From an uncultured Phycisphaerae bacterium (GTDB taxonomy: Bacteria; Planctomycetota; Phycisphaerae; Sedimentisphaerales; Anaerohalosphaeraceae): a DNA stretch of 64,000 bases. The translations under genes and the position numbers were made by a program. The notes beneath the pieces were generated by a model. That model saw only the letters and a list, made by a program, of their open reading frames with translations. It was not told where the DNA came from and ran no database searches. Where the stretch lies: positions 124,001 to 188,000 of the forward strand of contig CALEDR010000021.1 of assembly GCA_937949545.1 (NCBI GenBank). Reading direction: 5' to 3'. Positions 4,307-37,599 of the stretch are shown one piece after another. Numbering within the stretch: position 1 is the stretch's first letter; the number at the start of each line of letters is the position of its first letter.

Positions 4307-4351
4307 GTCATTCCCGCGTAGGCCTGTCATTCCCGCGTAGGCGGGAATCCA
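4307..4351. repeat. Dispersed palindromic repeat (ATTCCCGC / GCGGGAAT type), 1.5 copies
   Basis: GTCATTCCCGCGTAGG appears twice in a row, the second copy completed by CGGGAATCCA. ATTCCCGC and GCGGGAAT can form a hairpin with a 2-3 base loop. Related copies sit at 10730-10759 and 35357-35392, always between genes. This is a REP-like repeat common in many genomes. Confidence 0.7.
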
Positions 4352-10729: not shown

Positions 10730-10759
10730 GGCTTCCCGCTTTCGCGGGAATGACAGGGG
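10730..10759. repeat. Dispersed palindromic repeat copy
   Basis: TTCCCGCTTTCGCGGGAA with a following TGAC is another member of the ATTCCCGC/GCGGGAAT family. It sits in the 78-base gap between two convergent genes, where its hairpin might help end transcription although no T run follows. Confidence 0.65.
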
Positions 10760-33830: not shown

Positions 33831-33861
33831 AACGGATTGTATCTTTCGAAAGGATAACAGG

Positions 33862-35343
33862 ATGGAAAAGACAGGCAGCAAAATCCTTTGGACGTTTTTA
33901 TGGCCGGCAGTCTTTCTGCTTTGGCTGGCGGCAACGGCATCCGCCCAGGACGGCGGGCCCGCAGAAGAGTCCTCCGCAATGCGGGCCGAACGGCTCAGTC
34001 CCGTTCAGCAGCGAATGCAGCAGACCGTCAGTGTGGATTTCCGAAACACGCCGATTGACGATGTGCTTCGCATCCTGGCCCGCCAGGCCGGTGTGGACAT
34101 CATCAAAAGCCCCAAAGTCGAAGGCACCGTTACCGCCACCCTGAATAACGTCCCGCTGACCGAGGCGCTGGCCAACATTCTCGAAGCGCACGGATACAGC
34201 TACGTGACCACCGAAAACATGATTCGAGTCATGCCCGCCAGCGACATCATCGATGCGAGAGAGAAAATCATCAGCCGAATCTACCGGATTACTTATGCCG
34301 ACGTTAAAGACGTGGAAACAGCCCTCCGCAAATTCATCACAGAACGGGGCTCCATTTCCGCCAATCCCGGCACCAGCAATATCATCGTCACGGATGTCGA
34401 AAGCAAAATCAAGGCCATCGATTCCTTCATCGAAGAAATCGACCGCATCACCCCGCAGATCCTCGTCGAGGCCAAAATCTACGACATCTCCTCCCGGGCC
34501 AATCTGGACCTGGGCGTCGAATGGCAGATGGGCACCAACACCCTGTATGACCTGCAGGGAAGCTCCTATTCCAACGGGACAGCCGTCACCAGCACCATCG
34601 GCAACGCCGTGCAGGGCACCGTAACCAATCCGGCCATCACCAGCGTTTTCTCCGGCGACGTCGGAAAAACCTCCAGCACCGACGGCCTCTTCCGCTTCGG
34701 CATCCTGAACGACCATGTTCGGCTCGATGCCGCCCTGAAAGCCAAACAGGAAGACATTCGGGCCAAGCTGCTGGCCAATCCGCGCATTCTCGTGCTGGAC
34801 AATGTGCAGGCCGAAATCAAAATCGTGGAAGAATTTCCCTATCAGGAGCTAACGGAAAGCAGCGGCGGCGGCAGCATCGGCACTACAGCCTTCCGTGAGG
34901 TCGGCATTGAACTGCGCGTCGTGCCTCATCTGACGCGCGACGGGCTCATCCGGCTGCTGCTGAATCCCAAATTCAGCGTCCGCACGGGCGAGGTCGTCAT
35001 CACAGGCATCAGCAACCCCATCCCGCAGCCCATCATCGCCAGCCGGGAAACCATGACCACTGCCCTGATTCGGGACGGACAGACCGTCGTTATCGGCGGC
35101 CTGAAAAAACAGGATGTTTCTCAGCAGATCAACAAAATCCCCGTCCTGGGCAATCTGCCTCTGGTAGGCTTCCTTTTCCGCTCTGAGGGCGAAAGCACCA
35201 TGAACAGTGAACTGGTCATCTTCATCACACCCACGATTGTGAAAAATCCCATTCTCAGCGAGGAAGAACAGCAGCATCTGGCCAACACCGTCTTTACAAC
35301 ACCGCAGGCACCTCAGCCGCGCATCAAAGACCTGATGAATTGA
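33862..35343 (+). CDS. Secretin (GspD/PilQ family outer-membrane channel)
   Basis: 493 aa from ATG 33862. Sec signal peptide ending ATASA-QD at about residue 29. An N0/STN-type domain (about 55-120, VSVDFRNTPIDDVLRILARQ and LTEALANILEAHGYSY), an N1 domain (about 125-205, ERGSISANPGTSNIIVTDV), then the secretin barrel domain (about 290-480) with GIELRVVPHLTRDGLIRLLL, the VxxxPxLGxIPxxGxLF-type motif as NKIPVLGNLPLVGFLFRSEG, and LVIFITPTIV. It is shorter than most GspD (650 aa), with only two N-domains. Forms the outer-membrane gate for the machine. AAGGATAACAGG precedes the ATG. Confidence 0.95.
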   Translation: MEKTGSKILWTFLWPAVFLLWLAATASAQDGGPAEESSAMRAERLSPVQQRMQQTVSVDFRNTPIDDVLRILARQAGVDIIKSPKVEGTVTATLNNVPLTEALANILEAHGYSYVTTENMIRVMPASDIIDAREKIISRIYRITYADVKDVETALRKFITERGSISANPGTSNIIVTDVESKIKAIDSFIEEIDRITPQILVEAKIYDISSRANLDLGVEWQMGTNTLYDLQGSSYSNGTAVTSTIGNAVQGTVTNPAITSVFSGDVGKTSSTDGLFRFGILNDHVRLDAALKAKQEDIRAKLLANPRILVLDNVQAEIKIVEEFPYQELTESSGGGSIGTTAFREVGIELRVVPHLTRDGLIRLLLNPKFSVRTGEVVITGISNPIPQPIIASRETMTTALIRDGQTVVIGGLKKQDVSQQINKIPVLGNLPLVGFLFRSEGESTMNSELVIFITPTIVKNPILSEEEQQHLANTVFTTPQAPQPRIKDLMN

Positions 35344-35356
35344 GAGTATCCAACAA

Positions 35357-35392
35357 AACCCGTCATCATTCCCGCGCAGGCGGGAATCCAGA
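35357..35392. repeat. Dispersed palindromic repeat copy
   Basis: CATTCCCGCGCAGGCGGGAA with flanking GTCAT and TCCA: same family as 4307-4351 and 10730-10759. It sits 14 bases after the secretin stop, between convergent genes. Confidence 0.7.
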
Positions 35393-35441: not shown

Positions 35442-36530
35442 TCATTCCGATCCGTCGGAATCCTCTTTCCGGCGGCTTTTTCCCTGCGCCTCCATCTCTT
35501 TCAGCAGCCGCCGCCAGGTTTGGATATGCCCCTGCTCATCCTCCTGATTCTTCCACAGCATCCGCCGGGAGGCCTCTTCCCAAGCCGCCGCCTCGAGCAG
35601 CCGGCTGTAATGCTCAACCGCCTTGGACTCGACCCAAATGCCTGTCTTCAAAATCCACTTCGCCCCCGCCAGCCGAGACCCAAGCCCGAACACAACACCG
35701 ACGGCCTGCCAGAAGAACCGCAAAGGGCTCGGTCGAAAACCGTACTCGTACAGCTGTGTCTGAAAATCCTGCCAGTGCGTCAGCTCGTTGCACATCGCCG
35801 CAATCAGCTCGCGATTGAGCTCCGTCCGCTCCGGACCGATCTGAAGCCGATAAATCGTCGTCGCCATCAACTCCAGCGAATGCAGCGTCCGAAGGGCCCG
35901 GGCGATCTTCTTTCGTCCCTCCGGACTCAGCTTCTCTCCGCGAAACGCCACATCCTCCCGCCGCATCAGGGGCCGCAACACCTCCACTTCCGCCCCTGCC
36001 GACCGTTCATCCGCAGGTCGGGATCCGCCCTGAACTCTGCGGCGGAGATGCTGACGGGTCTGCACACGGACAAATGCCTCTTCATAGCGCTTGTGCTCTT
36101 GCGGCGTCTGCGGAACAAGAGCCGGAACCGGACGGGGTCTTCCGGTCTGCGGGTCCACCGCCACAAAGGTCAGATAGGCCGTGGTCGCCAGAGCTCGCCG
36201 ACCTTGCTGCGGATTTTCACAATACACCTCCACCGCCACCTCCATCGAGGTGCGGCCGGCATAACTGACCACCGCATCCAGCACCACCTGATCTCCGATA
36301 TGAATGGGCTGCTCGAACTGCAGCGTGTCCATCGCCGCCGTCACCACCGGCCCCCCCGCGTGACGCTGGGCCGCCATCGAGGCCGCCATATCAATCTCCG
36401 CCGCAATCGCCCCTCCAAACGCCGTCCCAAACGGATTGGCCTGGTTGGGCATCAGCAGAAACCGCGTTTGAACCCGGCTGTCCGAAGGTGTTTTCGAAGG
36501 ACGGTTTATCTTGTCAGAGGGTTCTGCCAT
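35442..36530 (-). CDS. Acyl-CoA thioesterase (hotdog) fused to COQ7-like di-iron domain
   Basis: 362 aa. Residues about 18-165 are a hotdog acyl-CoA thioesterase of the YciA/ACOT type: NPFGTAFGGAIAAEIDMAAS, VVTAAMDTLQFEQPIHIGDQ, YAGRTSMEVAVEVYCENP, TTAYLTFVAVD. Residues about 205-345 are a ferritin-like domain of the COQ7 (demethoxyubiquinone hydroxylase) type, with all di-iron ligands in place: E220, E249-xx-H252, E301, E332-xx-H335, and TGIWVESKAVEHY. Hotdog enzymes cleave acyl-CoA; COQ7-like proteins use di-iron and O2 for hydroxylation. I know of no well-described pathway for the combined protein; ubiquinone synthesis is unlikely in this lineage. AAGGAG seven bases before ATG; monocistronic. 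Confidence 0.88.
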   Translation of the reverse strand: MAEPSDKINRPSKTPSDSRVQTRFLLMPNQANPFGTAFGGAIAAEIDMAASMAAQRHAGGPVVTAAMDTLQFEQPIHIGDQVVLDAVVSYAGRTSMEVAVEVYCENPQQGRRALATTAYLTFVAVDPQTGRPRPVPALVPQTPQEHKRYEEAFVRVQTRQHLRRRVQGGSRPADERSAGAEVEVLRPLMRREDVAFRGEKLSPEGRKKIARALRTLHSLELMATTIYRLQIGPERTELNRELIAAMCNELTHWQDFQTQLYEYGFRPSPLRFFWQAVGVVFGLGSRLAGAKWILKTGIWVESKAVEHYSRLLEAAAWEEASRRMLWKNQEDEQGHIQTWRRLLKEMEAQGKSRRKEDSDGSE

Positions 36531-36714
36531 TTTACGACTCCTTATGTTGTTCTGCGTCTGATAATATAAGCAAAAAACAATCTGAAAAAAAGCAAAGAAT
36601 CTTCAAAAATTTTTTCACATCATTTTGGCCATTTTTCAAATTATCATCTCTGCTCCAACGGTCGATAATACCGTCAGACGCTCTTTCTCAGGGAACAGAA
36701 AGGAGATTTTTCTT

Positions 36715-37599
36715 ATGACAACCGCCTTATCCAGTTCGATCAACCCCTGCTTTATGCAGCCGGATGCCAAACGGGCCATCGACGTGATGAAATACGGAGT
36801 GATTACCGTCACCCCGCAGACCCGCCTCTATCAGGCCCTGGCCTGCATCGTCGATCTGAATATCAGCGGCCTGCCGGTCGTGGACAGACACATGCATCTG
36901 CAGGGCATCATCACGGAAAAAGACCTTCTGGCCATGCTCTATGAAAAACAAACCACCAGCGGCCTGGTCGAAAGCTACATGCACAGAGAGGTTGTATCTT
37001 TTCCGGCCGAAACGCTTCTGGAAGAAATCTGCAACTGCCTGATTCAGAATCCCTTCCGGCGCGTGCCGATTACACACCGCGGAAAAGTTGTCAGCGTCAT
37101 CAGCCGCACAGACCTGGTCCGCGTGAATGTGCATAAATTCCTTCCCGAACAGAAACCCGCTCCGAAACCGCCTTTTTCCGCCCAGCAACTGATGACCAAG
37201 GGCCTCATTACCGTCAGCCCTGAAAGCTCGCTCGGGGAAGCCCTTTCCCTGATGGCGGATTACTCCATCAGCGGCCTGCCGGTCGTCGAAGAAGGGATGT
37301 ATCTGGTCGGAATCATCACCGAAAAAGACCTGATGCCGTATTTCTACAGTCAGACGATTCCTCCCGCCCGGGTCGGAGAGATTATGACAACCGACCTGAC
37401 CGTTTTTTCCCCCGAATCAAACGTCTTTGAAATCACCGAATGCCTCATCCACAACAATTTCCGGCGTGTGCCGATTGTCCAAAACAAGATTCTGCTCGGT
37501 CTGGTCAGCCGCGCTGATGTTATCCGATACATCCTGCGCAATCTGACCCGCATCAGTCACCACCGAGCCGCTCAGAAAGTCAACCAGATGATTCCATAA
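36715..37599 (+). CDS. Protein with four CBS domains
   Basis: 294 aa made of two CBS pairs (Bateman modules): about 20-145 and 160-285. Repeated marks are the VMKYGVITVTPQTRLYQAL and LMTKGLITVSPESSLGEAL openings, ISGLPVV (twice), GIITEKDLLAM and GIITEKDLMPY, and FRRVPI (twice), so the protein is an internal duplication. CBS pairs bind adenine nucleotides and sense cell energy state; no enzyme or transporter domain is attached. AAAGGAG precedes the ATG at 36715. The 3' end overlaps the convergent GDPD gene by 20 bases. Confidence 0.92.
   Translation: MTTALSSSINPCFMQPDAKRAIDVMKYGVITVTPQTRLYQALACIVDLNISGLPVVDRHMHLQGIITEKDLLAMLYEKQTTSGLVESYMHREVVSFPAETLLEEICNCLIQNPFRRVPITHRGKVVSVISRTDLVRVNVHKFLPEQKPAPKPPFSAQQLMTKGLITVSPESSLGEALSLMADYSISGLPVVEEGMYLVGIITEKDLMPYFYSQTIPPARVGEIMTTDLTVFSPESNVFEITECLIHNNFRRVPIVQNKILLGLVSRADVIRYILRNLTRISHHRAAQKVNQMIP

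Follow-up and report, generated by a model that had tools for sequence, protein, structure and literature searches.

A predicted acyl-CoA thioesterase fused to a COQ7-like di-iron domain in one genus of Phycisphaerae

COQ7 is an oxygenase that takes part in making ubiquinone. The enzyme requires its iron site (PMC9563070, PMC5618687). Ferritin-like di-iron domains of anaerobes can also be fused to an unrelated enzyme, as in the [FeFe] hydrogenase-rubrerythrin chimera of Clostridium perfringens (PMC11926857). Here we describe a gene found in a 64,000-nucleotide stretch of an uncultured Phycisphaerae genome (hereafter the window), the product of which is, by family, a predicted YciA/ACOT7-type thioesterase joined to a COQ7-superfamily domain. 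The open reading frame lies on the minus strand, from an ATG at 36530 to a stop codon at 35444-35442; its parts and neighbours are listed in Table 1. A search of open-licence papers found none on a thioesterase-COQ7 fusion or on COQ7-like proteins in the oxygen defence of anaerobes.

Table 1. Positions in the window of the fused gene, its domains and its neighbours.
Feature	Coordinates	Strand	Evidence
Fused gene (acyl-CoA thioesterase, linker and COQ7-like di-iron domain), 362 aa	35442..36530	-	Pfam; full-length orthologues in G003 and G004
Predicted YciA/ACOT7-type hotdog thioesterase domain, residues 1-160 (about 15-160)	36051..36530	-	4HBT; 1vpm; residue mapping; Foldseek
Flexible linker, residues 161-196 (~30 residues flexible)	35943..36050	-	pLDDT; dN/dS
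Predicted COQ7-family ferritin-like di-iron domain, residues 197-362	35445..35942	-	PF03232; profile alignment; Foldseek; AF2 pLDDT 89
Secretin (PilQ/GspD-like) gene, convergent with the fused gene	33852..35343	+	Synteny G001-G004; name read from sequence
CBS-domain gene, divergent from the fused gene	36715..37599	+	Name read from sequence
Intergenic region between the fused gene and the divergent CBS-domain gene	36531..36714	.	CBS/thioesterase arrangement

The N-terminal half matches the Pfam family PF03061 (4HBT) at residues 34-109 (E 4.8e-18; 65.7 bits against a gathering score of 20.6), and its best match in the PDB is the acyl-CoA hydrolase of B. halodurans (1vpm; E 2.8e-32, about 40% identity). 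A Foldseek search with the full-length predicted model recovered the fold, with 1vpm and 5egl among the matched structures. When the catalytic positions were fixed from the deposited S. aureus thioesterase mutants N28A, D43A and T60A, N32, D47 and T64 of the fused protein were found to correspond to N28, D43 and T60 of that enzyme; all three residues are invariant among 11 thioesterase homologues. The half scores 61.7 bits against a YciA equivalog cut-off of 162 bits, and it is the sole copy detected in the window's genome of the order's standard YciA/ACOT7-type enzyme. By analogy with its relatives, it would hydrolyse acyl-CoAs and would be expected to assemble as a hotdog hexamer.

The C-terminal half matches the COQ7 family (PF03232) at residues 208-338 (E 1.3e-16; 61.1 bits against a gathering score of 23.5), a family matched by all 17 COQ7-like members at E 0.001, and it shares 22% identity with COQ7. 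The predicted di-iron ligands E220, E249, H252, E301, E332 and H335 are invariant in 17 homologues. In a profile alignment, E60, E90/H93, E142 and E178 of human COQ7 pair with the ligands of the COQ7-like domain, while H335, which belongs to the ExxH of the fourth helix, falls just outside the alignment; H307 and Y308 align with human COQ7 H148 and Y149. A hydrophobic helix (residues 271-288) is kept, in a region that aligns with the membrane-helix region of COQ7. Searched against the PDB, the profile of 17 homologues found human COQ7 (7ssp_E) as its only sequence family (E 1.4e-10). The first-pass annotation had described both halves as intact, with the hotdog core present, and this is borne out by Pfam matches above the gathering cut-offs and by the catalytic Asn, Asp and Thr; the six ligands are exactly those that it had listed.

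The AlphaFold2 model of the COQ7-like half is a helical bundle (pLDDT 89) for which Foldseek ranked human COQ7 first, the NADH-bound structure 7sss included. VIA-align returned many bacterioferritin and Dps-like chains, as well as thioferritin folds, at Z 17-18, and COQ7 was absent from the best 50 matches listed; the fold is thus ferritin-like in general and does not single out COQ7 chemistry. These matches, together with ferritin genes close by in several COQ7-like loci, are what would be expected of a ferritin-like iron oxidase acting with neighbouring ferritins. Such a role, in iron storage or as a ferroxidase, is nevertheless very unlikely, given that COQ7 is the only match of the sequence profile and that the alignment with it takes in the region of the hydrophobic helix. 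The fused protein did not match the rubrerythrin family PF02915 at E up to 1, and the combination of PF02915 with a rubredoxin-like domain that marks a rubrerythrin was not found. The analysis identified neither a reductase nor a rubredoxin for the COQ7-like domain, nor any NAD(P)H site.

The architecture was sought in 161 genomes of a single order, with genes in the relatives called by a simple codon-usage script; no uniqueness is claimed from this search, whether for the fusion or for a defence-linked COQ7 branch. The complete fusion is present in three of these genomes (G000, which is the window's own, G003 and G004), all from one genus, and the two orthologues are full-length and 90 and 93% identical to the window's protein (the G003 contig is public record JAKPDO010000050.1, the only record that a scan of genome contigs gave). 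A COQ7-like domain was tallied in 58 genomes (in one as a fragment only) and the thioesterase in 82. Both genes are present but separate in 34 genomes, with no sign of linkage; in G369 they share a contig, 42 kb apart. Within the window's genus, the two genes of G002 lie on different contigs, and only the thioesterase is present in G001 and G005. Because the genes are separate and unlinked in the 34 other genomes, the fusion is young and lineage-specific. A conserved operon turned into a fusion was ruled out, the pair being unlinked across the order.

The origin of the fusion can be followed in the trees and in the locus. The fused COQ7 domains group with the standalone gene of G002 (support 99/97), and the fused thioesterases with the thioesterase of G001 (support 100/100). 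The syntenic order is secretin gene, fused gene, CBS gene and a glycerophosphodiesterase gene (the last named by reading its sequence); the divergent CBS/thioesterase arrangement is kept in G001, G003, G004 and G005, a bare thioesterase stands at the fusion site in G001, and the COQ7 gene of G002 lies near the same secretin gene. Locus synteny and trees together indicate that two separate genes came together at this site. The fused COQ7 domains sit on a long branch (0.54, compared with 0.2 for the sister), a possible sign that function changed or was relaxed after the fusion. Downstream of the standalone thioesterase of G001 no COQ7 relic was seen, the stop codon being followed by a terminator-like hairpin. 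The tail of this thioesterase (locus L045, 10078-10614) is longer than most and ends in SAGT, where the fused linker has SAGA; the gene could descend from the fused gene minus its second half, or could be the ancestral form.

Several further features of the locus were recorded. Consensus promoter-like matches occur on both strands of the region between the fused and CBS genes and are not evidence of function. A dispersed palindromic repeat, GGATTCCCGCNNNCGCGGGAATGA, has three copies in the window (35366-35389, 4327-4350 and 10730-10753) against 0.01 expected, and the first of these falls in the gap that separates the end of the fused gene from the secretin gene. Among plasmid records, none matched a standalone COQ7-like query and none covers 80% of the fused protein, the ten best matches being to the thioesterase half; in the two best haloarchaeal plasmid matches (L152, L153) an acyl-CoA thioesterase is convergent with separate class I ribonucleotide reductase genes.

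In the full-length predicted model both domains are retained, on either side of a disordered linker around residues 168-196 (pLDDT below 50 at residues 168-190 and 192-196), from which one codon has been deleted in frame in G003. Across the three fused genes, dN/dS is 0.065-0.118 for the thioesterase, 0.038-0.119 for the COQ7 domain and 0.24-0.47 for the linker, with dS of about 0.36-0.54 across the species. Both domains are under purifying selection in the fused clade. The dS of the linker (0.18-0.35) is below that of both flanking domains. In each of the three fused species, codons 176-183 (about 35985-36005) contain the motif AGGRG and then, at codon 182, GTG or ATG, from which translation of the COQ7 half might start internally.

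The presence of the fusion in three congeneric genomes, with purifying selection, means that it is neither an assembly error, a chance event nor a decaying accident; on the same two grounds an assembly artefact or chance fusion was rejected as its source. The first-pass annotation had also raised the case of the two domains being separate in all close relatives, through a local fusion by error. Outside the three species that share the fusion they are indeed separate everywhere; within them, the conservation of the fused gene and the purifying selection on it show that it is not a local error. The annotation's further idea, that the fusion signals a new reaction performed jointly on CoA esters, is not supported, the genes being separate and unlinked in 34 genomes and the fusion confined to three species of one genus. 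It may equally be that two genes which had newly become neighbours lost the stop codon separating them and that this was tolerated, with both enzymes keeping their own jobs. We consider such a functionally neutral fusion about as likely as a functional one, and our confidence in it is evenly balanced. It would fit the restriction to 3 of 161 genomes in one genus, with the genes apart elsewhere, and a linker that is flexible and poorly conserved; the site is, moreover, an old neighbourhood (CBS/thioesterase in G001 and G005, COQ7 near the secretin gene in G002). Against this, the fused gene has outlasted at least two speciations at dS of about 0.4 with both halves constrained, although survival with constraint does not exclude neutrality, because a need for each half would have the same result.

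The biology of the host bears on what the COQ7-like half may do. Against the NCBIfam equivalog NF033656 (DMQ hydroxylase; cut-off 180 bits), the COQ7-like domain scores 34.3 bits and the whole fused protein 32.6, and all COQ7-like members score weakly against this model (best E 3.7e-12). The host had been taken from the first for a likely anaerobe, and this agrees with the lack of any detected COX1 or CydA across its genome, which is 99.7% complete. The sole UbiA-family gene is MenA (TIGR00751, 131.7 bits against a cut-off of 102), adjoined by a UbiE/MenG methyltransferase gene, and there is no sign that the host makes ubiquinone, as judged from the UbiA-family search alone. With no haem-copper or bd oxidase and MenA as the only UbiA-family prenyltransferase, DMQ hydroxylation is not credible. 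The COQ7-like half was accordingly rejected as a DMQ hydroxylase, in view of its failure against NF033656 and a host without sign of ubiquinone synthesis. Across the order, COX1 was found in none of the 58 COQ7 carriers and CydA matches in five, with neither in 53; the difference in oxidases between carriers and non-carriers is not significant (p = 0.11), which says only that the COQ7-like gene is not tied to oxygen respiration.

If a quinone ring were the substrate, the host's quinone would be menaquinone. The COQ7-like domain might then modify a menaquinone-type ring with O2, or act as a quinol oxidase, with the thioesterase merely an attached housekeeping enzyme. Retention of all the COQ7 ligands and of the aligned H148/Y149 pair, the hydrophobic helix at 271-288 and the menaquinone genes of the host (MenA, UbiE/MenG) are consistent with such a role. 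We think it unlikely, however: none of the annotated COQ7-like loci adjoins quinone-biosynthesis genes, O2 would be needed in organisms without a terminal oxidase, and the DMQ-hydroxylase model is matched weakly by every member (34 against 180 bits for the window's protein).

The neighbourhoods of standalone COQ7-like genes point elsewhere. Under one rule for all loci, in which rubrerythrin, ferritin, flavodiiron, desulfoferrodoxin and flavin reductase were scored as oxidative-stress genes, such a gene lies no more than four genes away in 14 of 50 standalone COQ7 loci and in none of the 26 thioesterase loci scored in the order (Fisher p = 0.0016, a value that overstates the evidence, since the scored loci share kinship and the 14 positives are phylogenetically non-independent). 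The other 36 standalone loci have no oxidative-stress neighbour. Because the loci are interrelated, the stronger point is that two different arrangements occur in two families. In one of them, a second family of the order, G6PD is often followed by the COQ7-like gene, within a run that also contains desulfoferrodoxin, ferritin, rubrerythrins and flavin reductase, and in some cases flavodiiron. The other arrangement belongs to the window's family, where the COQ7-like gene stands ahead of a rubrerythrin-like gene in several cases; in some of these, genes for a response regulator and an HDOD/histidine-kinase protein come next. The locus of the fused gene itself has no oxidative-stress association. 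The window's genome has rubrerythrins, as well as a cluster (C18:22000-41500) of rubrerythrin, flavodiiron, ferritin, rubrerythrin-like, Rnf and G6PD genes; no COQ7 gene lies inside it, whereas similar clusters of the related family have a COQ7-like gene directly after G6PD. The separate COQ7-like gene of the relatives, often among oxygen-defence genes, makes a role in protection against oxygen seem likelier than one in ubiquinone synthesis, and the oxygen or radical protection that the first-pass annotation had offered as one option is supported by these neighbourhoods. Standalone COQ7-like genes within oxidative-stress runs of apparently ubiquinone-free anaerobes (L087, L094, L105, L118 and similar loci) may perhaps have a wider reach than the fusion itself.

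Desaturases and hydroxylases are found among the di-iron carboxylate proteins. This, and the fact that a CoA-ester hydrolase is physically joined to a domain of di-iron oxidase type, would fit a coupled enzyme: the thioesterase would free the product of a di-iron domain that acts on acyl-CoA by oxidation or desaturation, or on fatty-acyl hydroperoxides by reduction. There is little to recommend this reading, as the two genes are unlinked outside the fusion, the annotated COQ7 neighbourhoods are without fatty-acid genes, and the sequence kinship is to COQ7 and not to desaturases.

The explanation that we favour, with a little over even confidence, is that of a recent fusion in which the COQ7-like half is an NAD(P)H-driven, membrane-associated, O2- or peroxide-reducing oxidative-stress enzyme tethered to a housekeeping thioesterase. 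Like COQ7, this half would sit on the membrane surface and would take its electrons from NAD(P)H, directly or via a bound quinone as in COQ7; it would reduce O2 or peroxide in the oxidative-stress defence of an anaerobe. The tethering might matter if, for example, release of fatty acids from CoA were co-localised with peroxide removal at the membrane. None of the computed results ties acyl-CoA hydrolysis to the di-iron chemistry, and elsewhere the thioesterase genes do not lie close to oxidative-stress genes. A neutral fusion is compatible with the favoured explanation, since the latter concerns the job of each half. It is a bolder and rather improbable proposal that the COQ7 branch found in anaerobes lacking ubiquinone reduces O2 or peroxide at the expense of NAD(P)H or a quinol and that, in one genus, the fused enzyme couples removal of reactive oxygen to the turnover of (oxidised) acyl-CoA at the membrane surface. 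A COQ7 branch among anaerobic oxygen-defence genes, in hosts that show no sign of ubiquinone or of terminal oxidases, would show the capacity of the family outside ubiquinone synthesis, and perhaps an earlier role. The fusion provides a single polypeptide for studying metal content, thioesterase activity and oxygen chemistry together.

Among published proteins, the one closest in design is the hydrogenase-rubrerythrin of C. perfringens (PMC11926857), which serves in peroxide defence. In that chimera, peroxide reduction draws its electrons from the partner, whereas the partner in the present fusion is a hydrolase without a redox role and the di-iron domain is of the COQ7 type, not a rubrerythrin. 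The YciA/ACOT7-type thioesterases (1vpm of B. halodurans, 4ncp and 5egl of S. aureus, and 4ien of N. meningitidis) have sequence, fold and the catalytic Asn, Asp and Thr in common with the fused protein, which differs from them in its C-terminal second enzyme domain and in scoring below the YciA equivalog cut-off. With the demethoxyubiquinone hydroxylase COQ7/CLK-1 (PF03232; 7ssp, 7sss), the COQ7-like half shares the ligand set and its spacing, H148/Y149 and the membrane-helix region; in contrast to that enzyme, it belongs to a host with MenA-type menaquinone genes and without oxidases, and its standalone relatives often lie among oxidative-stress genes.
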